The position numbers and the translations under genes were made by a program. Positions 3,648 to 23,190 of a stretch of DNA of 64,000 bases are shown one piece after another. The stretch lies in contig JAFOEY010000027.1 in the NCBI GenBank assembly GCA_017387565.1, positions 1 to 64,000 on the forward strand, read 5' to 3'. The stretch's first letter is position 1; every line of letters starts with the position of its first letter. The DNA is from Lachnospiraceae bacterium. Lineage in GTDB: Bacteria > Bacillota > Clostridia > Lachnospirales > Lachnospiraceae. The notes beneath the pieces are model-generated. The model saw only the letters and a list, made by a program, of their open reading frames with translations, ran no database searches and was not told the DNA's origin.

Positions 3648-4112
3648 ATGAATATTATTCTTGATATACTTAACAACCCACTTTTTGCCAGCGCCGCACT
3701 GGGGTGGTTTGTAGCTCAGTTTTTAAAAATGATTATATATTTAATTGTCAATAAGGAATTTCGATTTGAACGTTTTCTGGGAAACGGCGGAATGCCCAGT
3801 TCGCATTCGGCAACTGTATGCGCGTTAGCAACCGCTACCGGCCTGCATTATGGTTTTTCAGGATTCGAGTTTCCTATGGTTGCTTTTTTTGCCATCATTG
3901 TTATGAACGATGCTATGGGCGTGCGTCTGGAAACAGGAAAACAGGCAAAAATTATTAACGATATGCTGTTAATGTTTAAAGAAATGCCACAATGGAAGCC
4001 TTCTAAAGCCCATGAACATCTGAAGGAATTTGTGGGACATACTCCCATTCAGATTTTTGTTGGTGCAGTTTTGGGAATCAGCATTGCAATTATTTACTAT
4101 AATGTGATGTAG
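3648..4112 (+). CDS. yuiD: Divergent PAP2-family membrane protein (DUF212, YuiD-like)
   Basis: This 154 aa integral membrane protein has the signature GGMPSSHSAT (about residues 46-55), which marks the DUF212/YuiD family, a divergent acid phosphatase/vanadium haloperoxidase (PAP2) group. Hydrophobic segments lie near residues 10-33, 55-90 and 133-152. The helix between them carries MNDAMGVRLETGKQA. Its substrate is unknown; a lipid or isoprenoid phosphate is reasonable for the fold. It is the first of five consecutive + strand genes and has its own promoter. I infer no firm functional tie to the downstream acyl-transfer cluster, because a decayed repeat separates them. Confidence 0.85.
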   Translation: MNIILDILNNPLFASAALGWFVAQFLKMIIYLIVNKEFRFERFLGNGGMPSSHSATVCALATATGLHYGFSGFEFPMVAFFAIIVMNDAMGVRLETGKQAKIINDMLLMFKEMPQWKPSKAHEHLKEFVGHTPIQIFVGAVLGISIAIIYYNVM

Positions 4113-4276: not shown

Positions 4277-5428
4277 ATGCAAAGTAAGCCATTAACAAAG
4301 ACAGCTGTCATGAAAACAGCTGTTTTTAGTCTGTTGATTATCATTATTACCTGTTATGTGACCAAACTGGTGGTTCCCAAATTTTTATTGGAAAACTCCA
4401 GCTGGCCATCCACGTCTACCTTTACCCAGTTTTATGAAATGGAAGAAAACACGGTTGATGTTTTATTTGTTGGAAGCAGCTGCATGTCTACAGCCGGTAT
4501 TCCCCAGTACTTGTATGACAAAAACGGAATTGTCAGCTATAATCTGGCATCTCCTGAACAGACCCTGATCACTTCCTATTACTGGTTGGAAGAAGCACTT
4601 CGTTTTCAGTCTCCTTCTGTTGTATTTCTGGATAATCAGATGCTGTTTACCTTTTATGAAGATGAGCCGCTCAATTTTAAAGAGCCGGGACAACGCAAGG
4701 ATTTCGACTACATGAAATGGTCCAAAGTCAAAATGACCGCAGTTCATGACATTTGCTCTTTGGATTCATCCCAGTCCGAATTAAGCTATTATCTTCCTTT
4801 TGTGCGTTATCATGATCGATGGAAAGAACTGGGAAAACCGGACTTTACCTACACTCCCAGTAAACTATATGGGTTTGCACCTCTTTATGGCAGCCTGCAT
4901 GAAGAAGGCGAGGCTGATTTTGTTCCACTGGAAAATACGAATGTAGCTGCTATAGATTTCTCAAATAATTCAAATATCACAAATGTTTCTATATCAACTA
5001 CAGACGAAACCGATTCAAAAACAGTTGTAACCACCGCTACATCAGATGAGAACATCCTGCCCCTGATGCAGGAATATATGGATAAAATCGTAGCCCTTTG
5101 CAAAGAAAAAAATATTCGTCTTGTTCTTGTAACTACGGTTGCTCCCATTCAGACTCAGGCCCGCCACGATTTAACGGCTCAGTACGCAGCCGCTAACAAT
5201 CTGACTTATTTGGATTTCAATACGAAAGAACTATACGAAGCAACGCAGATGGATTATTTCACAGATTGCTACGATACTCATCATATGACCATTTCAGGTG
5301 GCGAGAAAATTTCGGATTATCTGGCCGATTTTGTACTTTCCGAAGGTCTTGCCACTCCGAAAACTTCATCTGATTTCGATAGCACGAAACAATATTACCG
5401 GGATTTTCTGACAGATTTATATCAATAA
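4277..5428 (+). CDS. Membrane-anchored SGNH-fold protein, DltD/AlgX-like
   Basis: The 383 aa protein has one N-terminal membrane segment (about residues 13-33) and a large extracellular domain. Features of the SGNH esterase fold are VLFVGSSCMS (Gly66-Ser67-Ser68), resembling the GSS nucleophile block of DltD, and DTHHMT (Asp333 to His336) near the C-terminus, resembling its Asp-x-x-His. Such proteins work with MBOAT proteins in D-alanylation (DltD) and alginate acetylation (AlgJ/AlgX), moving acyl groups to an extracellular polymer. The next gene is an MBOAT, which supports that role. I prefer ATG 4277, preceded by GAAGAAG; a TTG seven codons upstream has no ribosome site. The region around residues 205-255 is rich in Ser, Thr and Asn and looks like a linker. 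Confidence 0.8.
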   Translation: MQSKPLTKTAVMKTAVFSLLIIIITCYVTKLVVPKFLLENSSWPSTSTFTQFYEMEENTVDVLFVGSSCMSTAGIPQYLYDKNGIVSYNLASPEQTLITSYYWLEEALRFQSPSVVFLDNQMLFTFYEDEPLNFKEPGQRKDFDYMKWSKVKMTAVHDICSLDSSQSELSYYLPFVRYHDRWKELGKPDFTYTPSKLYGFAPLYGSLHEEGEADFVPLENTNVAAIDFSNNSNITNVSISTTDETDSKTVVTTATSDENILPLMQEYMDKIVALCKEKNIRLVLVTTVAPIQTQARHDLTAQYAAANNLTYLDFNTKELYEATQMDYFTDCYDTHHMTISGGEKISDYLADFVLSEGLATPKTSSDFDSTKQYYRDFLTDLYQ

Positions 5429-5458
5429 ACTTACTCAGATACAATCTGCGAAAAGCCA

Positions 5459-5495
5459 CTCTGAAAGAAATTATCTGAAAGAAATTATCTAAAAG
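5459..5495 (+). repeat. Short 15-bp tandem repeat
   Basis: TCTGAAAGAAATTAT occurs twice in tandem, followed by a partial third unit, in the 121-bp gap between the SGNH and MBOAT genes. No terminator is visible in this gap, so readthrough is likely. Confidence 0.6.
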
Positions 5496-5549
5496 TATTT
5501 TCCTTAAAACAGATAAGTAAAGAATAAATAAACACAAAGGAGAAGAACC

Positions 5550-7175
5550 ATGAGCTTAACATCATTTGATTTTTTTATTATGATTGCATGCACCGTTTGT
5601 CTGTATTACCTTCTCCCGCTAAAATTCCGCTTTCTTGCGCTTCTTGTTTCCAATATCTGGTTTATTTTGCAGGCTGATTCTGTTTTTGCCCTTATCTGCA
5701 TGCTGTTCCCGGCTTTTGTCACGTATGCAGCCGCTAACTATATCAGTAAATGTCGTGAGAAAACTACAAATGCCACGGCAATCATATCTGATATTGATTT
5801 GAATGAAACAAATAAAACGAATGAAGCAAATATAGCAAATAGTAATAAGAGAATAAAACTTGTTTTGACATTATCAATCATCTGTATCGCAGGATTTCTG
5901 ATTGTATTAAAGGATTCGAATTTCTTTATTAATACCTGGAATCTGGTGGCAGGAGTTCTTCACATTCCGCTTAGATTTTCTCAGGTCCATCTTGCGGCTC
6001 CTCTCGGAATTTCTTACTATTCCCTTTCCTGGATAGGGTATCTTCTGGATGTATATTGGGGAATTGCGACAGCAGAAAAAAATATCCTGAAGTTTTCCGT
6101 TATTGCCGGATATTTTCCGCTTTTAACTTCCGGTCCTATCATCCGGTACAAGGACTATTCTGCTTCCATTGTCACCGGACACCGCTTTGATTATGAGAAG
6201 TTTTGTTTTGGACTTCAGCGTATTTTATGGGGGCTGATGAAAAAACTTGTTATTTCATCACGTCTCGCAGTCTATATCAATGCCATTTATGACGGAAACG
6301 GTTATAACTGTTTTGTGGGAACTTATGTCTTGCTGGCAATGGTTTTGTTTGTTTTCCAGCTCTATACCGATTTTTCAGGTTGCATCGATATCATCATCGG
6401 TATTTCAGAAATGCTCGGTATCGATTTGCCGGAAAACTTTGACCTTCCTTTTATTTCCCGCAGTCTTTCCGAATTCTGGAGACGTTGGCATATATCCATC
6501 GGTGCTTTTTTAAGAGATTATATTCTGTATTCCATTTTGAAATCAGCACCTTTTCAAAAATTGGGAACATGGTGCAAAAAGAAATTCGGAAAGAAAACCG
6601 GCAAAAAAATTCCTGTCTGGTGTGGTATGTTAATTTCCTGGTTTTTAATCGGTTTCTGGCATGGCGGATATTGGAATTACATCATCGGCGTCGGTCTGTT
6701 TTTCGGCGTTGTGATTATTCTTGGCGAAATGGTTAAGCCTTTTACAGATAAGCTCATTACCGTATTAAAAGTAAATGTCGATTCCTTTGGTTTTCACTTA
6801 TTTCAGTGTATCCGCACATTTTGTCTGTTTACATTTGGCCTGTCTTTTTTCCGCTCCTACGGCGGCTTTCTGGAAGGTCTGAAAATCTGGCGTTCCGCTT
6901 TATTCGAATTCAGTCCCTGGATCTTTTTTGATGGTTCCCTTCTTTCTTTTGGACTGGATGCCAAAGACTGGCAGATTATTATCTTTTATATGTTGGTTTT
7001 AGCCATTGCCGGCATTGTACGCTATGTAAAAAAAGTTCCCATCCGTGTTCTGATTGCCGGTCAGCCGCTTTTATTACGCTGGATTTTATACATTGCACTT
7101 TTTATTAGCGTCATTTTGTTTGGCTGCTATGGGCCCGGATATGATGCACAGGCATTTATTTACCAGCAGTTTTAA
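5550..7175 (+). CDS. MBOAT-family O-acyltransferase (AlgI/DltB/PatA-like)
   Basis: This polytopic membrane enzyme of 541 aa should move an acyl group from a cytoplasmic carrier across the membrane to an acceptor. The family core is present: SEFWRRWHISIGAFLRDYI with His314, and GFWHGGYWNYI with the invariant His371. About ten or more membrane segments are visible. AAAGGAG lies before the ATG. A hydrophilic, Asn/Thr/Glu-rich insert at about residues 68-103 (ETNKTNEANIANSNK) is not typical of the family and looks repeat-derived. The neighbours are a DltD-like protein upstream, and an FkbH-like protein (25 bp) and an acyl carrier protein downstream. The donor is therefore likely an acyl-ACP rather than acyl-CoA. 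This donor assignment is inference. Confidence 0.9.
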   Translation: MSLTSFDFFIMIACTVCLYYLLPLKFRFLALLVSNIWFILQADSVFALICMLFPAFVTYAAANYISKCREKTTNATAIISDIDLNETNKTNEANIANSNKRIKLVLTLSIICIAGFLIVLKDSNFFINTWNLVAGVLHIPLRFSQVHLAAPLGISYYSLSWIGYLLDVYWGIATAEKNILKFSVIAGYFPLLTSGPIIRYKDYSASIVTGHRFDYEKFCFGLQRILWGLMKKLVISSRLAVYINAIYDGNGYNCFVGTYVLLAMVLFVFQLYTDFSGCIDIIIGISEMLGIDLPENFDLPFISRSLSEFWRRWHISIGAFLRDYILYSILKSAPFQKLGTWCKKKFGKKTGKKIPVWCGMLISWFLIGFWHGGYWNYIIGVGLFFGVVIILGEMVKPFTDKLITVLKVNVDSFGFHLFQCIRTFCLFTFGLSFFRSYGGFLEGLKIWRSALFEFSPWIFFDGSLLSFGLDAKDWQIIIFYMLVLAIAGIVRYVKKVPIRVLIAGQPLLLRWILYIALFISVILFGCYGPGYDAQAFIYQQF

Positions 7176-7200
7176 TTTCAGATATGAGGAGCAAAGTCAT

Positions 7201-8988
7201 ATGAAAGAGTTAGAATATCCATTTGATTCTGAATATATTTTAAAAAAGAAAAAAAAGATTCGCCGGGAACTTCTGGATACCGACAGGACGTTTTTAAAGA
7301 AAAAAATTGCCGTACTGGGCGGTTCGACCACAAGTGATATTGTAAAAATTCTGGATTTATTTTTATTAAATTATGGGATCATGGCTGAATTTTACGAATC
7401 CGAATACAATCAGTATTATCAGGACGCCATGTTTGATCCGCAGGAACTTTTAGACTTTGCACCGGATCTGATTTTTATCCATACCACCAATCGCAACATC
7501 CGCTTTTATCCGGAAATATCCGATGACGAAAATGTTGTTTCCGAGAAGTTAGCCAATGTTTACCATGAGTTTGAAGATATGTGGGAGCATCTGTCCGAGC
7601 GCTACCACTGCCCCATTATTCAAAATAATATGGAACTGCCTTCCTATCGTCTGCTCGGCAATGAGGATTGTGCTAATCCGCACGGTCGCACCAATTTCAT
7701 TTTAAAGTTAAATGATTTATTTCATCAATATGCAGATAAGCATGAAAGCTTTTATATTCACGATATTCTGTCTTTATCTGCCGGCTATGGTCTGGATGCC
7801 TGGTCAGATCCATTCTACTGGCATATGTACAAGTATGCTTTGTGCGTTCCTGCCATTCCCACCTTTGCTTATAATCTGTCACATATTATCAAGGCAATTT
7901 ACGGGATGAACAAAAAGGCGTTTGTTCTGGATCTGGACAACACGCTCTGGGGCGGTATCGTTGGCGACGATGGTATGGAAAATCTGGAATTGGGCCAGGA
8001 AACATCCATCGGTCAGGCATATTGTGAATTCCAGTCCTATTTGAAAGCACATAAAGACATGGGTGTATTACTAAATATCAGTTCCAAAAACGAAGAAGAA
8101 AATGCTCTTTCCGGTCTGTCTCATCCGGACAGTATTTTGAAAAAAGAAGATTTTATTGTTATCAAAGCTAACTGGGAACCTAAAAGCATGAATACTGCTG
8201 CTATAGCAAAAGAATTGAACATTTTGGAAAGCAGTCTGGTATTTGTCGATGACAATCCCGCTGAAAGAGAAATTATCCAAAAGCAACTTCCATCTGTTGC
8301 AGTTCCGGAAATTACTTCTGTTGATCAGTATATTCGTCAGATTGACAAACACGGTTATTTTGAAGTTCTAAAATTATCCAAGGATGATCTGAATCGAAGC
8401 AATATGTATAAGGCAAATGCGGAGCGAAATGCTACTATTCAATCATTTGATAATTATGAAGACTATTTAAAATCGCTGGAAATGAAGGCTGTGATTGGTC
8501 CGTTCGAGCCCGTTTATTTATCACGAATCGCACAGCTTACAAACAAAAGCAATCAGTTTAACCTGACTACCCGCAGATATACACAGGATGAAATTGCCCA
8601 AGTTTTAGAAGATCCCACGATGCTTTCATTTTACGGAAAACTGGAAGATAAGTTTGGAGATAATGGTGTGGTAACAGTAGCCATTGGTCGTGTAGATGGT
8701 ACCATCTGCCACATGGAACTCTGGCTGATGAGCTGTCGGGTCTTAAAACGTGACATGGAGCTTGCATTATTGGATGAAATCGTAGATACTTGTATCAGGC
8801 ACGGCATCAAAGAAATTCGCGGCTATTATTATAAAACAGCAAAAAATGCCATGGTAAAAGATTTTTATGGTAATAGTTTGGGATTTGAAAAAATATCCGA
8901 TGACGGAGAAAATTCTGTATGGAGTTTTGTAATTCCAAATCATTATGAAAAGCGCAATTGTGTAATTGAGGTTAATTCGATAGAATAA
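7201..8988 (+). CDS. FkbH-like HAD-IIIC family protein with C-terminal GNAT-like domain
   Basis: The 595 aa protein has three parts. An SGNH-like N-terminal domain (about 30-230) includes VLGGSTTSD. A HAD subfamily IIIC core (about 238-360) includes DLDNTLW with Asp244/Asp246, SSKN at 294-297 and VFVDDNP at 347-353. A GNAT-like C-terminal domain (about 425-580) completes it. FkbH relatives take a glyceryl group from 1,3-bisphosphoglycerate, dephosphorylate it and load it on an acyl carrier protein. The ACP gene downstream and MBOAT upstream fit such a carrier-loading role. Many FkbH proteins have Cys where this one has Ser294 (C-SKN), so glyceryl chemistry is uncertain. ATG 7201 is chosen over an earlier in-frame start at 7054, because TGAGGAGC precedes it and the earlier start would overlap the MBOAT gene. 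Confidence 0.88.
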   Translation: MKELEYPFDSEYILKKKKKIRRELLDTDRTFLKKKIAVLGGSTTSDIVKILDLFLLNYGIMAEFYESEYNQYYQDAMFDPQELLDFAPDLIFIHTTNRNIRFYPEISDDENVVSEKLANVYHEFEDMWEHLSERYHCPIIQNNMELPSYRLLGNEDCANPHGRTNFILKLNDLFHQYADKHESFYIHDILSLSAGYGLDAWSDPFYWHMYKYALCVPAIPTFAYNLSHIIKAIYGMNKKAFVLDLDNTLWGGIVGDDGMENLELGQETSIGQAYCEFQSYLKAHKDMGVLLNISSKNEEENALSGLSHPDSILKKEDFIVIKANWEPKSMNTAAIAKELNILESSLVFVDDNPAEREIIQKQLPSVAVPEITSVDQYIRQIDKHGYFEVLKLSKDDLNRSNMYKANAERNATIQSFDNYEDYLKSLEMKAVIGPFEPVYLSRIAQLTNKSNQFNLTTRRYTQDEIAQVLEDPTMLSFYGKLEDKFGDNGVVTVAIGRVDGTICHMELWLMSCRVLKRDMELALLDEIVDTCIRHGIKEIRGYYYKTAKNAMVKDFYGNSLGFEKISDDGENSVWSFVIPNHYEKRNCVIEVNSIE

Positions 8989-9123
8989 ACAGATGTGATG
9001 CCCGATAATACACAGATAAGCAGCAATTGCGAAAAAAGCAAATCACTAAAAATGATTGCAAAATATGTAATTGCCGATTCGGAACTAAAAATATAGAACA
9101 ATATAATGAAAGAGGAAATGCAT

Positions 9124-9363
9124 ATGACCAGAGAAGAAGTTTTTGAAAAATTAAATGAAGTATTTCAGGATGTTTTCGACGATGAGGAAATTACCGTCAA
9201 CGATGAAACAACGGCAGATGATATTGAGGACTGGGACAGCCTTGAACATATCAATCTGATTGTGGCTGTGGAAAATTGTTTCGGCATCAAGTTCAACATG
9301 GGCGAAGTAACCACCATGAAAAATGTCGGTGCCATGGTTGATTTAATTTTGAGTCGGATTTAA
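9124..9363 (+). CDS. Acyl carrier protein
   Basis: The 79 aa acidic helical protein has the phosphopantetheine attachment motif DWDSLEHI, with Ser39 as the modified residue. It carries the thioester in the cytoplasm. Its place at the end of the SGNH-MBOAT-FkbH run argues for a dedicated carrier, analogous to DltC, rather than the fatty-acid ACP. No fatty-acid genes are nearby. ATG 9124 has AGAGG eight bases upstream; in-frame ATGs at 9106 and 9118 are less well placed. The 135-bp gap before it has no evident terminator. A strong terminator follows. Confidence 0.9.
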   Translation: MTREEVFEKLNEVFQDVFDDEEITVNDETTADDIEDWDSLEHINLIVAVENCFGIKFNMGEVTTMKNVGAMVDLILSRI

Positions 9364-9412
9364 TATATTCCAACGTTGATAACATACACTGCATGAATTT
9401 CATATCTAATTT

Positions 9413-9473
9413 AAGAAATCCCTCCTGCAATTCAGGGCATTTAGCCTTATATACAGGAGGGATTCTTGTTTTT
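9413..9473 (+). terminator. Rho-independent terminator after the ACP gene
   Basis: AAGAAATCCCTCCTG (9413-9427) pairs with CAGGAGGGATTCTT (9454-9467) and is followed by GTTTTTC. It closes the yuiD-to-ACP run of + strand genes. Confidence 0.88.
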
Positions 9474-9749
9474 CTATGCAATCTTTTCCGATACATGCTC
9501 TAACTCATAAAGCATCTCAGGATCGATATCAATACATGTTTGTGTATCTCTATTTCCGGATACATCCCATGCCAATGTATCATTCAATATCGTACAGGAA
9601 TTCATAAAAAAATCCTTATTATTAAGTGGCTCAAATACTTTTTTTGAAAGTAAAGGCTTTACATCATAGCATACAATTTTACCATCTTCAAAATATACAT
9701 ATACTTTATAATCTTCACAAGGAACAACCTGAACTATATTATGAAACAT
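9474..9749 (-). CDS. DUF2442-type small protein
   Basis: The 91 aa protein has the DUF2442 pattern: an N-terminal beta-rich part with EDYKVYVYFEDGKIVCYDVKP, a middle segment containing FEPL and FFMNSC, and a C-terminal DIDPEMLYE. Members are often found next to DUF4160 proteins in toxin-antitoxin-like pairs, but no such partner is adjacent here. A GGTGGT site precedes the ATG. It lies 18 bp downstream of the GT2 gene at 9768-10748 and may be read from the same transcript. Function is unknown. Confidence 0.75.
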   Translation of the reverse strand: MFHNIVQVVPCEDYKVYVYFEDGKIVCYDVKPLLSKKVFEPLNNKDFFMNSCTILNDTLAWDVSGNRDTQTCIDIDPEMLYELEHVSEKIA

Positions 9750-9767
9750 AATACCACCACATTCTCT

Positions 9768-10748
9768 TTAATTATCATTATTTGTTTCTATGCTACTTGC
9801 ACCGGAAGGACCGTCCCCAGCGTCATCTTTCCCCTTGACAACATCAATCAGATACGGCGGTCTGTTTCTGGAGGCATCCAGCGCACGCCAGACATATTCT
9901 CCTAAAATTCCCATCATTAACATCATGCATCCAAAAGAAAACAGCACAACGCACATCAGGGAAGCCCATCCTAAAATAGGCGTACCCACGGTAAATTTCT
10001 CAACCAGTACACAAATCATCCAGATAACCGATGCCACAAAAAACAGTACACCCATTGTGGACATGAAACGGATAGGAAAATAAGAAAAACTGAGCATGGA
10101 ATCCATTGCCAGTTTTATTTTTTTGGACAAGGTCCAACGTGACACGCCGACTTCACGGTCTTTCCGATGAAAATATACATGATCCGTCTGAAATCCTGCC
10201 CACAGAACCTGCAAAGTCAGGGACGAATTCTTTTCATCCAACAGTTCCAAAACCTGAATCACCTGACGGTCCAACAGGTAACAGTCGCATCCTCCAACAG
10301 GCATCTTGTCATTAACCAGTTTATGAATAATATGATAATACATGCTGGCAAAAAACTTTTTAACCGGATTTTCATCACGGGAAGAACGAACCGCCAATAC
10401 AACTTTATTGCCTTTTTTCCAGCTCTCGTACATATCCAGAATGATTTCACTGTCTTCCTGTAAATCCGCCTGCTTAGTCACAGCGCAATCCCCGGTACAA
10501 ACTGACAACCCGGCCAAAAGTGCCGCATGTTCACCAAAATTTCTGGAAAGCTTTACACATTGTGTATGACCATCCATTTCCCTTATCTGATTCATGATTT
10601 CCCATGAATTGTCACCGGAGCCGTCATCCACAAATACCAACTCGTAATCCCCAAGCTTATCAAGGATTTTTTCTTTCATATCCTCATATAAAAGCATCAG
10701 GGTATCTGAATTATAATAAACCGGAACAACGATTGAAATTTTACTCAT
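9768..10748 (-). CDS. GT2 glycosyltransferase, GtrB-like polyprenyl-phosphate sugar synthase
   Basis: The N-terminal GT-A domain (about residues 1-225) has VVPVYYNSD, FVDDGSGDNS and the NFGEHAALLAG block typical of the GtrB/DPM1-like branch. Two membrane helices follow (about 232-258 and 265-292), as in GtrB. These enzymes transfer a sugar from a nucleotide donor to undecaprenyl phosphate at the inner face of the membrane. The start overlaps the FdtA-like gene by 8 bp, so translation is coupled. The transferred sugar may therefore be the 3-amino-3,6-dideoxyhexose made by the FdtA/FdtB-like enzymes, which is an inference from gene order. Confidence 0.88.
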   Translation of the reverse strand: MSKISIVVPVYYNSDTLMLLYEDMKEKILDKLGDYELVFVDDGSGDNSWEIMNQIREMDGHTQCVKLSRNFGEHAALLAGLSVCTGDCAVTKQADLQEDSEIILDMYESWKKGNKVVLAVRSSRDENPVKKFFASMYYHIIHKLVNDKMPVGGCDCYLLDRQVIQVLELLDEKNSSLTLQVLWAGFQTDHVYFHRKDREVGVSRWTLSKKIKLAMDSMLSFSYFPIRFMSTMGVLFFVASVIWMICVLVEKFTVGTPILGWASLMCVVLFSFGCMMLMMGILGEYVWRALDASRNRPPYLIDVVKGKDDAGDGPSGASSIETNNDN

Positions 10749-11163
10749 GTTGTTTTACTTCCTTTATAAATTCTTCGTAATCGCGAATGTACTCTTCCCC
10801 ATCATAATGCTCACTGGCAAGTACCAGTAATACCGAATCCGGTGAAAAATCATACATGTCTTTCCAAACCATCGTCTTGAGATACAGTCCCATACGCGGC
10901 TTGTTCAATTCAATGATTTCTGTCTCATAACCATTGTCAACCTTCACCTTGCTTGTCCCACTGACATTAATCAGTACAAACTCAGTCTTGCGGTTTGCAT
11001 GCTGTCCACGAATCACTTCATCGTCCGAACCATACATGTAAAACACGCGCTTAATGGCAAAAGGCACATCCATGCCATCTCCTTCAGCAACCACCAGATT
11101 GCCTCGTTCATCACCATATTCATTAAAATTAATGATTTCGTATAATTCACTTAGTTTTTTCAT
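10741..11163 (-). CDS. dTDP-4-keto-6-deoxyglucose 3,4-ketoisomerase-like cupin (FdtA/QdtA/WxcM type)
   Basis: This small cupin of 140 aa has the family signature IRGQHANRKTEFVLINVSG (about residues 51-69) and a C-terminal DSVLLVLASEHYDGEEYIRDYEEF. FdtA and QdtA move the keto group of dTDP-4-keto-6-deoxyglucose from C4 to C3. The DegT-type aminotransferase encoded upstream on the same strand would then aminate C3, giving dTDP-Fuc3N or dTDP-Qui3N. The sequence does not let me decide the stereochemistry. The acetyltransferase that usually completes this pathway is not recognisable nearby. Confidence 0.85.
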   Translation of the reverse strand: MKKLSELYEIINFNEYGDERGNLVVAEGDGMDVPFAIKRVFYMYGSDDEVIRGQHANRKTEFVLINVSGTSKVKVDNGYETEIIELNKPRMGLYLKTMVWKDMYDFSPDSVLLVLASEHYDGEEYIRDYEEFIKEVKQHE

Positions 11164-11184
11164 AGATTCTCACTTTTATAAAAA

Positions 11185-11262
11185 ATTATTCAAAATAGTG
11201 TACTATCATCGATATTATTCAAATTACCTGCACTATCATTATTGATATTACTCAAAAATAAT
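11185..11262. repeat. Degenerate tandem repeat of about 30 bp
   Basis: ATTATTCAAA-type blocks start at 11185, 11214 and 11247, each followed by an ACTATCAT...GAT block. The array lies in the 186-bp gap between the aminotransferase and isomerase genes, which are otherwise expected to be cotranscribed. Confidence 0.6.
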
Positions 11263-11349
11263 AAAAAAAGTTTTTAATGTTCGTTTTCATCTGCAATCAT
11301 ATTTGAGCCTTTATCAACTGACAATAACACAAATCATTCATCATAATAA

Positions 11350-12441
11350 CTAAAATGCATTGATCGCATCAATGACGTAATCCTGCTCTTCTTTGGTCAT
11401 CCCATTATACATTGGAATTGACAGAACCTCATTTGCCAAAGTCTCAGTAATCGGAAAATCGCCTTCCCTAAAACCAAGATAACGGTAAGCCTCTGCTAAA
11501 TGCGGCGGAATCGGATAATGGATGATGGTTCCGATTTCTTTTTCATTAAGATATGCAATCAGACGGTCTCTATCTTTACAACGGATCACAAACTGATGAT
11601 ACACATGCGTTGCTCCATCAAGCAACTTCGGTAATGTAATCTTATCGTTGTGCAATTCTGCCAGATAGCGAGCTCCGATTGCCTGTTTCTCAGCAGTCAG
11701 CTCGTCCATATGTGACAAACGCACCCGCAAAAGCCCTGCCTGCAATTCATCCAGTCTGGAATTTGTTCCGACAACTTTGTTGTAATATCTTTTTTCACTA
11801 CCGTAATTGCGGTATATTTTCATATCCTTTGCAATATTCTCATCATTAGTTACAATGGCACCACCATCACCAAATGCTCCAAGATTTTTGGACGGATAAA
11901 AGGAAAAACAACCAATATCCCCGAATGTTCCGGTCATCTGTCCACGATAGCAGGCTCCATGAGACTGTGCACAGTCTTCAACCAATCGCAAATGATATTT
12001 TTTGCACAAGGAAACAATCGGCTCCATATTAGACGCCTGGCCATATAAGTGCACAACCAGAATCGCTTTTGTCTTGTCTGTAATCTTTTCTTCTATTTTA
12101 GCCGGATCAATCTGGTAATAATCATCCGGTTCCACAAAAATGGGAGTTGCACCATTGATGGTAATCCCCATAACGCTGGCGATGTAGGTATTACCCTGCA
12201 CGATAACTTCATCACCCTCGCCTATACCAAGTACGCGAAATGCAAGCCAAAGCGCATCCAATCCGCTTGCCAGACCAACACAGTATTTTGCCCCGGTATA
12301 TGCAGCAAATTCTTCCTCAAAAGAAGAAACTTCCTTTCCGAGTACATACCAACCGCTACGCAATACTTCTAAAGCCTTATTCTCAAATTCATCCTGATAC
12401 TGAAAAAATCCCCGGTCCATCCGGTTTGGCATAATCTTCAT
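11350..12441 (-). CDS. DegT/DnrJ/EryC1-family sugar aminotransferase (FdtB-like)
   Basis: This PLP-dependent aminotransferase of 363 aa is from the family that converts keto-sugar nucleotides to amino sugars. The internal aldimine lysine is Lys185 in SFYPSKNLGAFGDGGA. VEDCAQSHGA (155-164) and GLASGLDALWLA (57-68) are typical cofactor-pocket motifs. GTGAGG precedes the ATG, and a good promoter lies at 12565-12593. Adjacent to an FdtA-like ketoisomerase, it most likely acts at C3 of a dTDP-6-deoxy-3-ketohexose. The product sugar would be used by the GT2 enzyme at the end of this three-gene run. Confidence 0.9.
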   Translation of the reverse strand: MKIMPNRMDRGFFQYQDEFENKALEVLRSGWYVLGKEVSSFEEEFAAYTGAKYCVGLASGLDALWLAFRVLGIGEGDEVIVQGNTYIASVMGITINGATPIFVEPDDYYQIDPAKIEEKITDKTKAILVVHLYGQASNMEPIVSLCKKYHLRLVEDCAQSHGACYRGQMTGTFGDIGCFSFYPSKNLGAFGDGGAIVTNDENIAKDMKIYRNYGSEKRYYNKVVGTNSRLDELQAGLLRVRLSHMDELTAEKQAIGARYLAELHNDKITLPKLLDGATHVYHQFVIRCKDRDRLIAYLNEKEIGTIIHYPIPPHLAEAYRYLGFREGDFPITETLANEVLSIPMYNGMTKEEQDYVIDAINAF

Positions 12442-14038: not shown

Positions 14039-14219
14039 CGAAAATCACAATTGTTTTTGCTTGTTTTTAACGAAAATCACAAATGTTTTGTTCCCGTTTT
14101 TAACGAAAATCAAAAATGTTATGCGCCGGTTTTCCACGAAAATCAAAAAAGTTGTGCATTGGTTCTTCACAAAAATCAAAAAAGTTACACATTGGTTCTT
14201 CACGAAAATCACAAATGTT
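14039..14219. repeat. 33-bp tandem repeat, about six copies
   Basis: The repeated core ACGAAAATCACAAATG (variants with CAAAAA) recurs at 14039, 14071, 14104, 14137, 14170 and 14203, that is at 32-33 bp intervals. It fills most of the 314-bp gap before the flippase gene. It is open in two forward frames, which explains an apparent 71-residue N-terminal extension of the flippase that I do not accept as coding. Confidence 0.85.
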
Positions 14220-14247
14220 TATTTTTATGGAAAGCTCTTTTTCCTTG

Positions 14248-14256
14248 TGCTATACT
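14248..14256 (+). promoter_or_regulatory. Extended -10 promoter of the flippase gene, possibly leaderless
   Basis: TGCTATACT matches the extended -10 consensus TGnTATAAT in eight of nine positions. The flippase ATG lies only eight bases beyond it, so transcription would start at or next to the start codon. There is no Shine-Dalgarno site before this ATG, and no clear -35 hexamer. Confidence 0.55.
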
Positions 14257-14263
14257 TGAAACT

Positions 14264-15817
14264 ATGAAAACAGTAAGCAAGAGCAAACAAATTATGATTA
14301 ATATGGCAGCCAGCATGGTATCCACTCTGGTCAGCCTTGCGATTAGTTTTGTATTATCGCCGATTATCATTGACAAACTGAATTTTGAAGCATATGGGTT
14401 TTGGACTTTGGCCAATGACTTTGTCAGCTATGCCAATATTGCTGCTATGGCATTAAACTCCATGGCAGGTCGTTTTATTACTGTCAGTCTGACAAAGGGA
14501 GATTATGACAACGCCAACAAGTACTTCAATTCCACCATGTACGCCAATATAGCCATTGTGGCATTTATGTTCCTGCCATGCGTTTTTATTGTGACCTTTT
14601 TAGAGCATCTGGTCAACATTTCATCTGCGCTGATACCGGATGTAAAGCTGTTGTTTGCCCTGACCTTTTTAAACTTTATGGTCACCATTATCAGCACGAC
14701 CTTTTCAACCGCAACATTTGCGGCCAACCGCTTGGACTTGCAGGCATTTAGGACCATCGAATCCCAACTGCTTCGTTCCGCTATATTAGTTATTACCTTT
14801 TTCTTTTTACCAATTCATGTAAGTTACATGGCTCTGGCATCTGTCATTGCAACCACTTACATGTTGATTTCGTATATTCATTATACAAAGAAATTAATGC
14901 CGCAAATCGAAATCAGTCGTAAGCATTTTTCCATGAAAAAGGTCATTGAAATTCTTTCTGCCGGAGTTTGGAACACCATCATGAGAGCCGGTCAGACTTT
15001 GACAAACGGATTGGATATTCTGATCACCAACCTAATGATTGGCGGCGAAGAGATGGGATATGTCAGCACATCAAAGACCATCGCTGTCGCAATCAACACG
15101 CTTTATGAAACCATTTCAGCCGTCTTTACTCCTTCGCTTACCATCAGTTATGCGAAAGAAAATAAAGAAGAATTATTGCAGGATTTAACTTCTGCCATGA
15201 AAATGACAGGTTTTTTTGCCAACATTCCGCTATGCTTTGTCATAGCATTTGGGATTCCGTTTTATACACTATGGTTGCCTAGAACCGAAATGGCGTCAGA
15301 CCATTCCGTGATTATTATGATTTATCTGTTGACCGTGCTTACGATGTTTGGAACTATCGTCGGCGGTGTCATCAGCCCTTTGTTTAACGTCTATACCGTG
15401 GTCAACAAATTAAAATGGAATTCTTTGATGACTCTGTACATGGGTATCGCCAATACCATTATCGTGTTTATTTTGTTAAAAACTACCAACTTGTATGTCT
15501 ATGCAGTTGCCGGAACATCTACGGTCCTCGGCATCATTAAAAACCTTACGTTTACACCCATGTATGCCGCACATTGTCTTGGCGTTTCGAAGCGTTCCTT
15601 CTATCCGACCATTATCCGATATGTCGTTGTCAGCATTGCTATGTGCGTTGCTTTCTGCGGTCTGTATCTTGTGTTACCTACAACTAACTGGATGTGGCTC
15701 TTTATTGATATTGTCATCTGTGGTGTGACAGGCTCCGTCATCAACATTTTATTCTTATTTGGTCAAAAAGAGCGTGCCATGCTTTTGGATGTTGTAAAGA
15801 AATATGTGAGAAAATAA
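14264..15817 (+). CDS. Wzx-like polysaccharide flippase (MOP superfamily)
   Basis: The 518 aa integral membrane protein has twelve to fourteen predicted hydrophobic segments in the regular spacing of the oligosaccharide/polysaccharide exporter group. It has the usual N-terminal SKSKQIMINMAASMV start and a central GVWNTIMRAGQTLTNGLDILI block. It is expected to flip undecaprenyl-linked glycan intermediates to the outer face. It is the only flippase-like gene seen in this locus. I start it at 14264, where family similarity begins. The longer frame from 14051 only translates the 33-bp repeat. No ribosome site is visible, which fits the leaderless promoter idea. Confidence 0.85.
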   Translation: MKTVSKSKQIMINMAASMVSTLVSLAISFVLSPIIIDKLNFEAYGFWTLANDFVSYANIAAMALNSMAGRFITVSLTKGDYDNANKYFNSTMYANIAIVAFMFLPCVFIVTFLEHLVNISSALIPDVKLLFALTFLNFMVTIISTTFSTATFAANRLDLQAFRTIESQLLRSAILVITFFFLPIHVSYMALASVIATTYMLISYIHYTKKLMPQIEISRKHFSMKKVIEILSAGVWNTIMRAGQTLTNGLDILITNLMIGGEEMGYVSTSKTIAVAINTLYETISAVFTPSLTISYAKENKEELLQDLTSAMKMTGFFANIPLCFVIAFGIPFYTLWLPRTEMASDHSVIIMIYLLTVLTMFGTIVGGVISPLFNVYTVVNKLKWNSLMTLYMGIANTIIVFILLKTTNLYVYAVAGTSTVLGIIKNLTFTPMYAAHCLGVSKRSFYPTIIRYVVVSIAMCVAFCGLYLVLPTTNWMWLFIDIVICGVTGSVINILFLFGQKERAMLLDVVKKYVRK

Positions 15818-15973: not shown

Positions 15974-17050
15974 ATGGCTAAAATCTTAGGTGTTGCCAGC
16001 ACGCCCTATCAGTTGCTGGTTTTCTTATTTATCAAAGATGCATACTTATCTGAAGATGAAGTCGATCTGATGATTACAGACAAAACTGCTTCGATGGAAG
16101 AGCTCTATCAAAGCGGACGTTTGAATTCTTATTTTCATAAGGTCTTTTTCGGCGATGGCAGAAAAATCAAAAATCCATATAAGAATGCTTTCGTTACCTT
16201 TTTTGAAAGCTTTTTTTATAACCGTACAACCGATATCATTTTGGATAAACCTTTGGATTTTTATGACGAAATGTATTTTGCTTCCCCCGGCCTTCCGGAT
16301 GAAATTGTAAAAGAAGTAGCAAAATCTTTGATCAGAAAAAACAAAAAATTGGTTTTTCACCGTTTTGAAGACGGTTTTGCAAGCTACACCAAAATGCCCG
16401 CCCATGTAATCAATACGGATTTGGGTATCAAAATGTACAAAACCATCTGGCACTATGATGTGGAAAAGATGGAAAGAGATATGTGGTTGTTTGAGCCGGA
16501 TATGGCTGAAAAAAATGTCACTTTTGAAAAGAAACAAATCGAAAAAACACCTGAACGTATCGAAAAAATCATTTCCATGGCAAAGGATATTTTTCAATTT
16601 CAGGTACAGGTTCCAGATGAGAAATATATCTTTTTAGGTCAGGGAACCGAAAACGGAATGCAAAATTCCAAGACTTATCAGCGTTTAATTCGACAATTCC
16701 GGGATATTGCAGGTGATGACAATTTCATCTTAAAGCCCCATCCCAGAGGCGAACATGATGATTTTCACGGCGAAATGAAGATTTATAAAGACAGCTGCCC
16801 TTTTGAGTTAGCCATCGCTTCCGGTAAATTTGAAGACAAAACACTTATTTCTTTTTATTCTACCGCCTGCGTTTCCGGCAAACTCTTATTCAAAAGCAAA
16901 TGCCGCATTATCTTTTTATATCCGCTTTCCGAGGATTCATTTAATGAAAAGTGCGACTACGAAGATTATTTTTCTGCTTTCTCATCACTTTGCGACAATG
17001 TATTTATCGCAAGGAGCTGGGATGATGTCAAAAGGCTTTGCCAGAACTAA
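15974..17050 (+). CDS. GT52-like glycosyltransferase (sialyltransferase-related fold)
   Basis: The 358 aa soluble protein begins with STPYQLLVFLFIK and contains FILKPHPRGE (about residues 254-263) and SFYSTACVSGKLLF (about 295-308). These three blocks together resemble CAZy family GT52, known from bacterial alpha-2,3-sialyltransferases and related enzymes. AAAGGA precedes the ATG. No CMP-sialic acid synthase or sialic acid synthase occurs in the window, so the donor is unknown and may not be a sialic acid. It converges with the GT-C gene at 17058, with only 7 bp between stop codons and no obvious terminator. Confidence 0.65.
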   Translation: MAKILGVASTPYQLLVFLFIKDAYLSEDEVDLMITDKTASMEELYQSGRLNSYFHKVFFGDGRKIKNPYKNAFVTFFESFFYNRTTDIILDKPLDFYDEMYFASPGLPDEIVKEVAKSLIRKNKKLVFHRFEDGFASYTKMPAHVINTDLGIKMYKTIWHYDVEKMERDMWLFEPDMAEKNVTFEKKQIEKTPERIEKIISMAKDIFQFQVQVPDEKYIFLGQGTENGMQNSKTYQRLIRQFRDIAGDDNFILKPHPRGEHDDFHGEMKIYKDSCPFELAIASGKFEDKTLISFYSTACVSGKLLFKSKCRIIFLYPLSEDSFNEKCDYEDYFSAFSSLCDNVFIARSWDDVKRLCQN

Positions 17051-20102: not shown

Positions 20103-21812
20103 ATGAATAACATAATCAAAACTGACAAAACCAACACAAGCAATTATATATTTGGACGCAAACGCATCCTGATCATCGGCATCCTGTCTCTTATCTGGTG
20201 GGCACTTACTTTTATCACGGACAAAAAAATTTTTACCGCTGATCCTCTCAATATGAGTAGCCTCCCCATTGATACCGATGCTGTTTTTTTGATGCATATT
20301 CTTTCCAAAATTGTATTGCTTGGAACGATTGTGGGGATTCTTTGCTTTATCTCTTATGGCATCCGTCATCGCAAGCTATTATTTGCTTTTGTCATTTATT
20401 TTGCTCTATATCTGGGAATTCTTCTTCTGAATTATCCCGGTTATTTCATGAGTGACGACACCATCATTTTCGGTTATGCCACCCGCTATTATCCGGTCTA
20501 TTGGCATAATTATCTGACCAGTATTTATTATATGACCGGGCTTTCTTTGTTTCCGGCTTCCACAGGTCCTATCATCTTAAATGATTTGATTTTGGCTATG
20601 GTTTTTTCCTATATTTTCTATGAAACCGATCGTTTATATACTTCAAAAATAAAATATGTTATTGCTATCGTCGGTCTTTTTCCTTTTGTGCTATTATCTG
20701 CTGCCATGTGTTTTCGACCGGTATTGTATGCTCCCTTTTTCCTGTTTTTCTTTGCTTTTCTATTCTTTGAAAAACAGAAAAAAGCTTCTTTTAGCATACC
20801 AAAAAGCATTATGCTTTCTCTCTTAACCGCTTTGCTTTGCTTCTGGCGTAGCGAAGGGATTGTTCTGATTTTATTCTGTTTTGTGTTGATTCCTACCGTT
20901 TATGGATTGCCGAAAAAAACAAGTCAAAATGACCGAACCGACCGCCGGACCGACCGTTTTCAATGGAAACAGGCACTCTGTTTTTTACTGGTATTTATCA
21001 TCTCGTTTTCTTTAATTAAAATCCCCCAGTCTAATGGGGAAAAGAAATATTACGGAAGTGACTATCTGATTATTTCCACCATCCGTCCGCTTTCCCTGAT
21101 TATTCACAGGGAGCAGACCTATCCGGGCGCCGAGGAAGATCTTGCAAATATCGATGCCGTTATTGACTTGGATTATATCAGCTACGAAACCCTTTCATGC
21201 AGTTCTTATAACCGCTATAATTCCGATCACAACAGCGGACATTTTACTGAAACCGGAGCAGATGCCGACGCACAGAAAGCATTTTTAAAGAGTGCTGTCA
21301 GACTAATCTGGAACAATCTGGATTTATATATTGCAGAACGTCTTCAACTGTTAGCTGTGACTAACGGTTACTATGACTATAATCCTGCTATGGTAATGAA
21401 TTTAAAACCAGTTACTACATCTGAGTTTTTATCCTTCCAGGCTGATCGGGAATATGGAAAAGAACTGGTAAATGGCAATGCCAGATGGCATTATGAAAGC
21501 CGTCAGGATATATTGCTGTTTTTGTTTGAACATGGTGGCGAAGCTTATCTGATTATTTTGTTTTTTGCCGCAATCTTTATGTTGTATACGTTATCAGAGA
21601 AAAAACTTTTTTATTTCTTTGCGTTTGCTTCCCTGATAGCAAGAGAAGCAGTCATTTTTCTGACTGCTCCCGCTTCTTTTATCCAATATAATTATCCGAT
21701 GATGTTTGTTACGGTATTTCTACTTCTTGTGATGTTTGTTTCTTCCTGCGAGGACGGATTTTTCCGAAGCATAAGAAATCAGTTATCCAAAGCTGCTTCA
21801 AAGCAGAAATAA
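20103..21812 (+). CDS. Polytopic membrane protein, GT-C-like (possible DUF6020 relative)
   Basis: The 569 aa protein has about eleven or twelve membrane segments. The first large outer loop carries GYFMSDDTIIFGYATRYYP, with adjacent acidic residues as in GT-C enzymes. A later CFWRSEGIVLILFCF resembles a conserved Arg block of the DUF6020 group. A soluble stretch (about 300-430) lies between helices. I choose ATG 20103, which has AGGAAC upstream; an ATG at 20046 would add 19 hydrophilic residues without a better site. A glycan-assembly role is inferred from context only. Its 3' end overlaps the convergent acyltransferase gene by 104 bp. Confidence 0.7.
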   Translation: MNNIIKTDKTNTSNYIFGRKRILIIGILSLIWWALTFITDKKIFTADPLNMSSLPIDTDAVFLMHILSKIVLLGTIVGILCFISYGIRHRKLLFAFVIYFALYLGILLLNYPGYFMSDDTIIFGYATRYYPVYWHNYLTSIYYMTGLSLFPASTGPIILNDLILAMVFSYIFYETDRLYTSKIKYVIAIVGLFPFVLLSAAMCFRPVLYAPFFLFFFAFLFFEKQKKASFSIPKSIMLSLLTALLCFWRSEGIVLILFCFVLIPTVYGLPKKTSQNDRTDRRTDRFQWKQALCFLLVFIISFSLIKIPQSNGEKKYYGSDYLIISTIRPLSLIIHREQTYPGAEEDLANIDAVIDLDYISYETLSCSSYNRYNSDHNSGHFTETGADADAQKAFLKSAVRLIWNNLDLYIAERLQLLAVTNGYYDYNPAMVMNLKPVTTSEFLSFQADREYGKELVNGNARWHYESRQDILLFLFEHGGEAYLIILFFAAIFMLYTLSEKKLFYFFAFASLIAREAVIFLTAPASFIQYNYPMMFVTVFLLLVMFVSSCEDGFFRSIRNQLSKAASKQK

Positions 21813-23190
21813 AGAGTGCTGTCAAAATACTCATAAGCACAAATGATGCGAGTATCCATAAAATGGTATCCACATGAAAAGGAGTCAGATTTTTCTCGGA
21901 AAGTCCCAGGATTCTTGCAAAACGGAAATGCAGAACGTAGATTTCCAGAGTATACTGACCAATATATGCCAGAGCCCTTTGCAACCAGCCTTTACAAAAA
22001 TGTGCCACGCCGTAAAAGCAGGCAAAAACACCTAAAAAAGAGGCTGTCATCTGGATGATGAGCGAGGTTGTATCCGTTACCACAACCATGTCATAGGCAC
22101 ATACCAGATAAATGAAAATAAGAGTGCACAACATACAAAAGATATTACTAACTATGTGATTATTCCTAATGGATTTTATTTTTGGGTCCCCATCTTCTCT
22201 GCCCTTCATACTAGTATCATCACATTTTATTTTGTCTAATTCATCTACTTTGTTTTGCCTAATTGTATACTGCTCTTGTCCATCATCCAATCCATGAGTT
22301 TTCCTTTTTTGTAAATACGGAACAACATGATAAGCCACCAGATAAGCTACAACATAAAATGGTAAATATCGAACCGTCAAACTGGGACTTAAAAAAGTAT
22401 TTCCGCTTCGAGCCTGTAAAAAGAAACCAACATAGCAGATAAAAATAACTAGACAATATACAAAAAATCGCATTGCTTTTTCCTTGCGACCTACTTCATA
22501 AGAGCCATGGCAATCACTTTTTTCCATTTCATCTTGACTGCCAATCGTTTTAGTTTTAGATTCACTTTCAATTGTATACTGTTTATCCACAACATCATGC
22601 ATAGTATCAGTTTCATTTTCAACCGTACTTTTTGAAACCACAGCACTTTGCGAATCCACAACACCATGCATAGTATCATTTTCACTTCCAACCATATACT
22701 GCGAATCAAAGGCACCATTCTTACTTATGGCATATGCAGAATAATCGGCAAGATATGACGCTATCATATGAACAAGTGTGATAATCCAAAGTGTCGCCAA
22801 AAACCAGAGTCCATAATCTAAATGAAACAACTCTGTTTTCAGCTCCTTCAAACAATGTGGAAACGAAACAATTATCATCCATGTAAAAAAGGGAACCAGA
22901 TATGCCACACTTCTCTTTCCAAAAGTTTTGGCACTTCTTTTTAAATCAGGCTTTTGTCCCGGCTCACCATGTTTTTGTCCTGCAAGATATCCGCTCACTG
23001 CTATAAACAACGGCATCTGAACCGCTGCAATAGCATCATATAAGTAAGGGTCTGCTAACCCATTTAACACAATGCAATGACCCAACATAACCAGTAGAAT
23101 GGCAAATCCCTTAACGGCATCTAAAGAAATATCTCTATTCAGTTTTGTAAATTCTGCATTTACTTTGACATTTCCTGTCATGCTTTTCAT
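21709..23190 (-). CDS. Acyltransferase-3 family membrane protein
   Basis: The family N-terminal block is visible: RDISLDAVKGFAILLVMLGH, then PLFIAVSGYLAG. This is typical of integral acyltransferases that O-acetylate surface glycans. About ten membrane segments are present in 493 aa, longer than the usual 330-380. The extra length is a hydrophilic insert (about residues 155-235) with 23-residue repeats containing DTMHGVVDSQ / DTMHDVVDKQ. A second charged loop is near 290-330. The start codon follows directly on the stop codon of the upstream gene (TAAATG), so translation is coupled. The last 35 or so codons overlap, in antisense, the end of the gene at 20103-21812. Confidence 0.85.
   Translation of the reverse strand: MKSMTGNVKVNAEFTKLNRDISLDAVKGFAILLVMLGHCIVLNGLADPYLYDAIAAVQMPLFIAVSGYLAGQKHGEPGQKPDLKRSAKTFGKRSVAYLVPFFTWMIIVSFPHCLKELKTELFHLDYGLWFLATLWIITLVHMIASYLADYSAYAISKNGAFDSQYMVGSENDTMHGVVDSQSAVVSKSTVENETDTMHDVVDKQYTIESESKTKTIGSQDEMEKSDCHGSYEVGRKEKAMRFFVYCLVIFICYVGFFLQARSGNTFLSPSLTVRYLPFYVVAYLVAYHVVPYLQKRKTHGLDDGQEQYTIRQNKVDELDKIKCDDTSMKGREDGDPKIKSIRNNHIVSNIFCMLCTLIFIYLVCAYDMVVVTDTTSLIIQMTASFLGVFACFYGVAHFCKGWLQRALAYIGQYTLEIYVLHFRFARILGLSEKNLTPFHVDTILWILASFVLMSILTALFISALKQLWITDFLCFGKIRPRRKKQTSQEVEIP
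22580..22710 (-). repeat. Intragenic 69-bp repeat in an acyltransferase loop
   Basis: CATGCATAGTATCA-containing units occur at about 22596 and 22665, with a partial third. The period of 69 bp preserves the frame (23 residues). The insert lies between predicted membrane segments. Confidence 0.7.

Follow-up and report, generated by a model that had tools for sequence, protein, structure and literature searches.

The bacterial Dlt system decorates the cell wall with D-alanine. In it, the carrier protein DltC docks on the HC helix of DltB, a protein of the MBOAT family, with contacts (residues 302–317) that lie between His289 and His336 (PMC11035591). The tyrosine of an FxYxxF shuttle motif is acylated in PatA, whereas in Dlt the motif sits on a separate peptide, DltX, and other MBOAT-SGNH pathways are described in the same source as using acyl-CoA and no carrier (PMC12148441). 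Enzymes of the FkbH family, known from polyketide pathways, load glyceryl from 1,3-bisphosphoglycerate onto a carrier (PMC7489565). The window examined here, the first 64,000 nucleotides of contig JAFOEY010000027.1 from a Lachnospiraceae bacterium (GenBank assembly GCA_017387565.1), was found to carry four genes that, judged from sequence comparisons, probably form a Dlt-like cassette for acylation across the membrane, with FkbH taking the role of DltA. In this cassette (probability roughly 0.66) FkbH would charge the carrier, the MBOAT would export the acyl group and the SGNH protein would esterify a surface glycan.

As reported in a preliminary description of this DNA, the SGNH, MBOAT, FkbH and carrier genes are consecutive on the forward strand and are followed by a terminator:

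4277–5428, + strand: SGNH acyltransferase, DltD-like in layout, with one N-terminal membrane helix (residues 8–31) and a presumed triad of Ser68, Asp333 and His336
5550–7175, + strand: DltB-related MBOAT, with His314 and His371, 56 residues between them, and a C-terminal FIYQQF (residues 536–541)
7201–8988, + strand: FkbH, with an N-terminal domain and a HAD phosphatase domain (D244-x-D246) as in 3slr, and a GNAT-fold C-terminal domain with Cys512 in SCR
9106–9363, + strand: acyl/peptidyl carrier protein, with phosphopantetheine Ser45 in DWDSLEHI
9417–9464, + strand: intrinsic terminator hairpin of the operon, with a T-rich tail after it

The SGNH gene start was placed at 4277 rather than at TTG 4256 of the open reading frame listing, and that of FkbH at ATG 7201, which is preceded by GAGGAG; the listed FkbH frame opens at TTG 7054 within the MBOAT gene. 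The terminator stem is strong (−24.6 kcal/mol, z −4.96; none of 200 shuffles equally stable), is followed by CTTGTTTTT and was considered real; it is missing from the list given by a consensus terminator scan. The genes run in the order D-B-(FkbH)-C and not A-B-C-D.

The window FkbH belongs to its family by NCBIfam model TIGR01686 (278.5 bits; cut-off 146.65) and matches 3slr in sequence across the N-terminal and HAD domains. The structural matches of its predicted model (predicted local distance difference test score, pLDDT, 83.3; predicted template modelling score, pTM, 0.63) were 3slr and then GNAT folds. The HAD motifs are kept, with D244 and D246 in the nucleophile motif DxDNT. The SCR cysteine, Cys512 in the window, was invariant in 59 of 59 FkbH frames, and again in all 15 frames of a second set and in three aligned FkbH domains from long frames. 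The cysteine of CSKN was rejected as the catalytic thiol, as that column is not conserved and holds a serine in the window protein, whereas the SCR cysteine is invariant. A covalent intermediate on an FkbH cysteine may be formed.

The MBOAT was matched by Pfam PF03062 (38.3 bits; cut-off 27), and its only two PDB sequence matches were both DltB (E 2.7e-21). With the DltB equivalog model TIGR04091 it scored 135.2 bits against a cut-off of 375, and by sequence it is a relative of DltB, not an equivalog. Related loci were collected by an MBOAT scan of one genome per species, seeded with the window MBOAT aligned to 11 MBOATs taken from FkbH loci, and the best 80 of 590 matching stretches, a set enriched for kin of the FkbH-linked seed, were retained. 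When the surroundings of the top-scoring MBOAT in each locus were read out to 6 kb on the same strand, 39 of these 80 had a gene with an adenylating-ligase motif, 13 had FkbH, none had both and 28 had neither (Fisher p 8e-5 for exclusivity, relatedness ignored). Ligases were called by a single P-loop-like motif; for five of seven sampled, amino-acid adenylation models gave the top score and DltA came second (261–317 bits, under the DltA cut-off of 476), and the other two scored best as acyl-CoA-ligase-like. A labelled carrier was present in 38 of the 39 ligase loci. The family labels came from hidden Markov models seeded with the window proteins, which under-call distant SGNH and carrier proteins.

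In a tree of 121 MBOATs, the window protein fell in a clade of 25 rows (support 100 in the Shimodaira–Hasegawa-like approximate likelihood ratio test, SH-aLRT), 22 of which were labelled FkbH-linked. A mixture-model tree of 114 rows kept the clade with 24 rows and support of 99, L170 having been left out as too short. Of the three clade rows labelled as lacking FkbH, L043 has it on the other strand, L103 just past the 6 kb limit, and L104, on a 9.5 kb contig, has none; FkbH therefore lies within the fetched stretch of 24 of the 25 members. The clade was named after the tree had been seen, and 11 of its rows (the window and ten FkbH-anchored stretches) had been chosen for FkbH, but an independent count is provided by the 14 clade loci from the MBOAT scan, 13 of which have FkbH. 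An 80-row group around the clade contains 55 further rows, and 40 of them are ligase-linked. Chance adjacency of FkbH and MBOAT was set aside, given the 13 scan-derived loci and the single copy of FkbH in the assembly. Co-occurrence of the families in other genomes, which the preliminary description had named as one test of its proposal, came out in favour.

A segment of at least 50 residues between the two histidines, the region corresponding to the DltC contacts in DltB, was found in 24 of the 25 clade rows (the remaining row is truncated), 40 of 41 ligase-linked rows and all nine carrier-only rows. It was present in none of eight other MBOATs of the host genome and in 6 of 29 rows with neither loader nor carrier nearby. 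DltB, with 46 residues counted on the alignment, is intermediate between the long and short groups. The C-terminal FIYQQF of the window MBOAT is an acyl-shuttle motif of the PatA type, and the exact motif ends 26 of 31 FkbH-linked and 33 of 41 ligase-linked MBOATs. As FxYxxF also ends the eight other host MBOATs tested, the motif alone is no marker of carrier feeding; the long segment and the FIYQQF end together fit a carrier-fed MBOAT, as far as sequence can indicate. The eight other host MBOATs, with FxYxxF ends and short segments, look as expected for O-acyltransferases of the acyl-CoA type. They represent eight of the ten further MBOATs of the assembly, and one of them, own_L004, is also the no-loader row L098.

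The host assembly (2.9 Mb, 99.5% complete, but in 69 contigs, so that absence from it is no proof) holds 11 MBOATs, one FkbH, four carrier proteins and one AMP-binding gene. No adenylating ligase, and so no DltA candidate, was found in the cassette or near any MBOAT of the assembly. The only AMP-binding match lies on contig 51, apart from all 11 MBOATs, and was read, without a family scan, as an acyl-CoA ligase. No polyketide synthase was found in the assembly, where the ketosynthase search gave one full match and one partial match of 40 positions. A polyketide pathway was accordingly set aside. FkbH standing in the place of DltA, also proposed earlier, is well supported by the mutually exclusive loaders, the FkbH-linked clade, the carrier-type anatomy of the MBOAT and this lack of a detected polyketide synthase.

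The carrier was matched by Pfam PF00550 (23.1 bits; cut-off 20.8), and with the DltC equivalog model it scored 15.5 bits against a cut-off of 68. For the SGNH protein no confident sequence family was found: the best Pfam match, DUF1574 (E 0.005), was under its cut-off, there was no NCBIfam match, a PDB sequence search gave a single match (E 0.25) to an aminotransferase, and a search of viral contigs gave none. Its predicted fold is nevertheless that of an SGNH protein (pLDDT 82.9, pTM 0.84), and with the N-terminal helix this gives the membrane-anchored SGNH protein expected of a Dlt-type system. In an alignment of 28 sequences G66, D330 and H336 are invariant and D333 is at least 90% conserved. 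The top Foldseek match was a DltD, but a weak one (E 6.9e-4, template modelling score, TM, 0.38, 12% identity), and by Z score DltD is no closer than other SGNH proteins are. The earlier label of a DltD-like SGNH protein holds for the fold and the anchored layout; by family the protein may be a DltD or another SGNH protein.

Two further observations were made on SGNH-labelled frames near MBOATs. In 15 of 85 such frames GDCE replaces the expected GDS/GSS nucleophile motif, with Cys for the presumed catalytic Ser (loci L107, L108, L110, L113, L115, L122, L126, L129, L144, L149, L150, L151, L158, L163 and L173). The MBOATs of these 15 loci make up exactly one subclade (support 100), and 13 of them are ligase-linked; whether these SGNH proteins may be thiol DltD-like transferases is a question that the sequences raise. 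In L099, L139 and L143, three to five SGNH-labelled frames surround one MBOAT, mostly consecutively in L099 and L139, as if several transferases shared one exporter.

In the mechanism proposed for the window cassette, FkbH would draw on a glycolytic acyl phosphate, by analogy with its family most likely that of 1,3-bisphosphoglycerate. Its HAD domain would strip the distal phosphate, and D-glyceryl would pass to the phosphopantetheine of the carrier, perhaps via the SCR cysteine. The charged carrier would then dock on the MBOAT from the cytoplasmic side, at the long basic stretch that separates the two histidines, as the anatomy suggests, and the FIYQQF shuttle of the MBOAT itself would receive the acyl group on its tyrosine. 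From there, if PatA/PatB and DltX/DltD are a guide, the acyl group would pass to Ser68 of the anchored SGNH protein, which would esterify hydroxyls of a surface glycan. The preliminary description proposed a glyceryl or similar ester, and judged from the FkbH family glyceryl is the likeliest acyl group. The odds are about even that the acyl phosphate of 1,3-bisphosphoglycerate, and not ATP, energises a glycerate ester on a surface glycan, in which case the decoration would follow glycolytic flux.

A number of findings weigh against this interpretation. Neither loader was seen at the 28 remaining MBOAT loci, some of which are at contig ends. Nine of the 31 FkbH-linked MBOATs in the tree are outside the clade, five of them with short segments, so that some FkbH-MBOAT linkage is incidental. 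The TM-score match of the SGNH fold to DltD is weak, SGNH proteins diverge strongly across the clade, and several clade loci have no labelled SGNH protein. Among FkbH stretches a carrier without a labelled MBOAT (31 of 58) is commoner than both together (16 of 58), the FkbH-carrier pair alone is thus no predictor of this system, and the window FkbH could, on sequence, feed another pathway. Of the 25 clade loci, nine have MaoC on the MBOAT strand, six have SDR there and three a transketolase pair, and in those loci the final acyl group probably differs from plain glyceryl.

The stretches counted here come from 295 genomes drawn from the order, 60 of which have an FkbH match and 49 a match over the cut-off (60 such matches). 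The 58 stretches fetched comprise 54 of the over-cut-off matches and four below the cut-off; four FkbH domains that are parts of very long frames were left out, as were a match on a 3.2 kb contig and that of the window itself. A carrier was labelled in 47 of the 58 and an MBOAT in 17. As a separate observation, L177 (a Candidatus Doudnabacteria record, and so from a candidate phylum) has FkbH, a carrier, a 143-residue gene and an MBOAT at 7602–11488, the MBOAT being outside the clade and having a short segment between the histidines.

The tailoring genes bear on the alternative in which the same carrier-MBOAT-SGNH machine exports an acyl group other than glyceryl, such as 3-phosphoglyceryl, lactyl or another hydroxyacyl. 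In some relatives within the clade the cassette is accompanied by MaoC, SDR, transketolase halves or asparagine-synthase-like genes (the last on the MBOAT strand in 5 of the 25 loci), and the carrier-bound acyl group could possibly be remodelled there before export, for example from glyceryl to lactyl. That MaoC suits a beta-hydroxyacyl thioester such as glyceryl is a weak hint. The window cassette itself has no tailoring enzyme gene and its FkbH keeps the family-wide motifs, and the 24 further clade loci include 11 with no tailoring gene labelled on the MBOAT strand, a count from a single-sequence label search over stretches of which some are short. A different acyl group in the window is considered unlikely, at around one chance in five. 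MaoC, in some cases with SDR or a split transketolase on the same strand, was seen in the FkbH-MBOAT relatives L044, L054, L080, L099, L109, L112, L119, L121 and L178.

Less probable still, and rather doubtful, is an arrangement in which FkbH and the carrier make a cytoplasmic glyceryl-type precursor for a sugar or for a flagellar or capsular glycan, the adjoining MBOAT and SGNH protein being an ordinary acetyl-CoA O-acetyltransferase. The frequency of FkbH and carrier without a labelled MBOAT would suit it, as would the C-terminal shuttle motif, which is typical of CoA-type MBOATs (PMC12148441). In Campylobacter jejuni, cj1302, an fkbH-domain gene, belongs to the set of flagellar-glycan genes that PMC7099621 compares, and flagellin carries di-O-methyl-glyceric acid (PMC3068675, which does not name FkbH). 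The FkbH-linked MBOAT clade, the exclusivity of the loaders and the long docking segment argue instead for carrier feeding. Charging of the carrier by fatty-acid synthesis enzymes, with FkbH unrelated, is highly improbable: the best-scoring models for the carrier are of the fatty-acid acyl carrier protein type, but every one is under its cut-off, FkbH and carrier are linked in most stretches, and the genome has three other carriers.

The genes on either side of the cassette, mostly on the opposite strand, are as follows:

150–2306: mannose-1-phosphate guanylyltransferase-like and epimerase genes
3648–4112, + strand: DUF212/PAP2-like membrane protein, just upstream of the cassette
9768–12441: GT2 enzyme, FdtA-like protein and DegT aminotransferase
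14051–15817: flippase-like (PF01943)
15974–17050: polysialyltransferase-like (PF07388)
21709–23190: acyltransferase-3 (PF01757)

The flippase-like, polysialyltransferase-like and acyltransferase-3 genes mark a region for surface glycan, the last of them coding for a second acylation enzyme that is unrelated to the cassette. The preliminary description proposed a wall polysaccharide as the acceptor; a surface glycan in that role is a natural guess from this neighbourhood.

If the Dlt-like interpretation is correct, the Dlt architecture is modular in its loader: amino-acid ligases, acyl ligases and FkbH would each supply a common chassis for export and transfer. The two arrangements described for MBOAT-SGNH pairs would be joined by a third, in which a carrier feeds an MBOAT that has its shuttle built in, and FkbH chemistry, known from polyketides, would be placed on the bacterial surface.

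No description of an FkbH-MBOAT-carrier-SGNH cassette was found in searches of open-licence full text on FkbH with MBOAT or polysaccharide, Dlt-like or FkbH systems, gellan glyceryl transferase or glyceroylated glycans. FkbH and an MBOAT share one gene cluster in aeruginosin and suomilide biosynthesis, but there FkbH is a loading domain of a nonribosomal peptide synthetase and the supposed role of the MBOAT is acylation of the peptide product, with no carrier-fed surface transfer described in the part of the source relied on here (PMC10143770). The FkbH glyceryl loaders of polyketide and tetronate pathways share with the window an FkbH over the cut-off and a stand-alone carrier, as in Mad7/Mad8 (PMC7489565), whereas in the window genome no polyketide synthase was found and the product would exit via the MBOAT. 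The PatA/PatB-type O-acetyltransferases, and those of alginate and cellulose systems, have the C-terminal FxYxxF on the MBOAT and an SGNH partner, but these systems are described as using acyl-CoA and no carrier (PMC12148441), whereas the window has a carrier gene and a longer docking segment.

The nearest relatives are the ligase-carrier-MBOAT-SGNH loci, mostly from Clostridia by record title, for which no published description was found in the literature searched. They have the same MBOAT group, the long docking segment, a carrier and usually an SGNH protein, and differ in having an adenylating ligase as the charger where the window has FkbH. With Dlt, the window shares a carrier, a DltB-related MBOAT with both histidines, a membrane-anchored SGNH protein and a single operon. 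It differs in having FkbH for DltA, in carrying the shuttle motif at the C-terminal end of the MBOAT rather than on DltX, and in scores far under the curated cut-offs of the DltB and DltC models. The cassette, as predicted from its sequence, is one that works like Dlt without being a member of it, DltA being absent and the DltB and DltC equivalogs not being represented.

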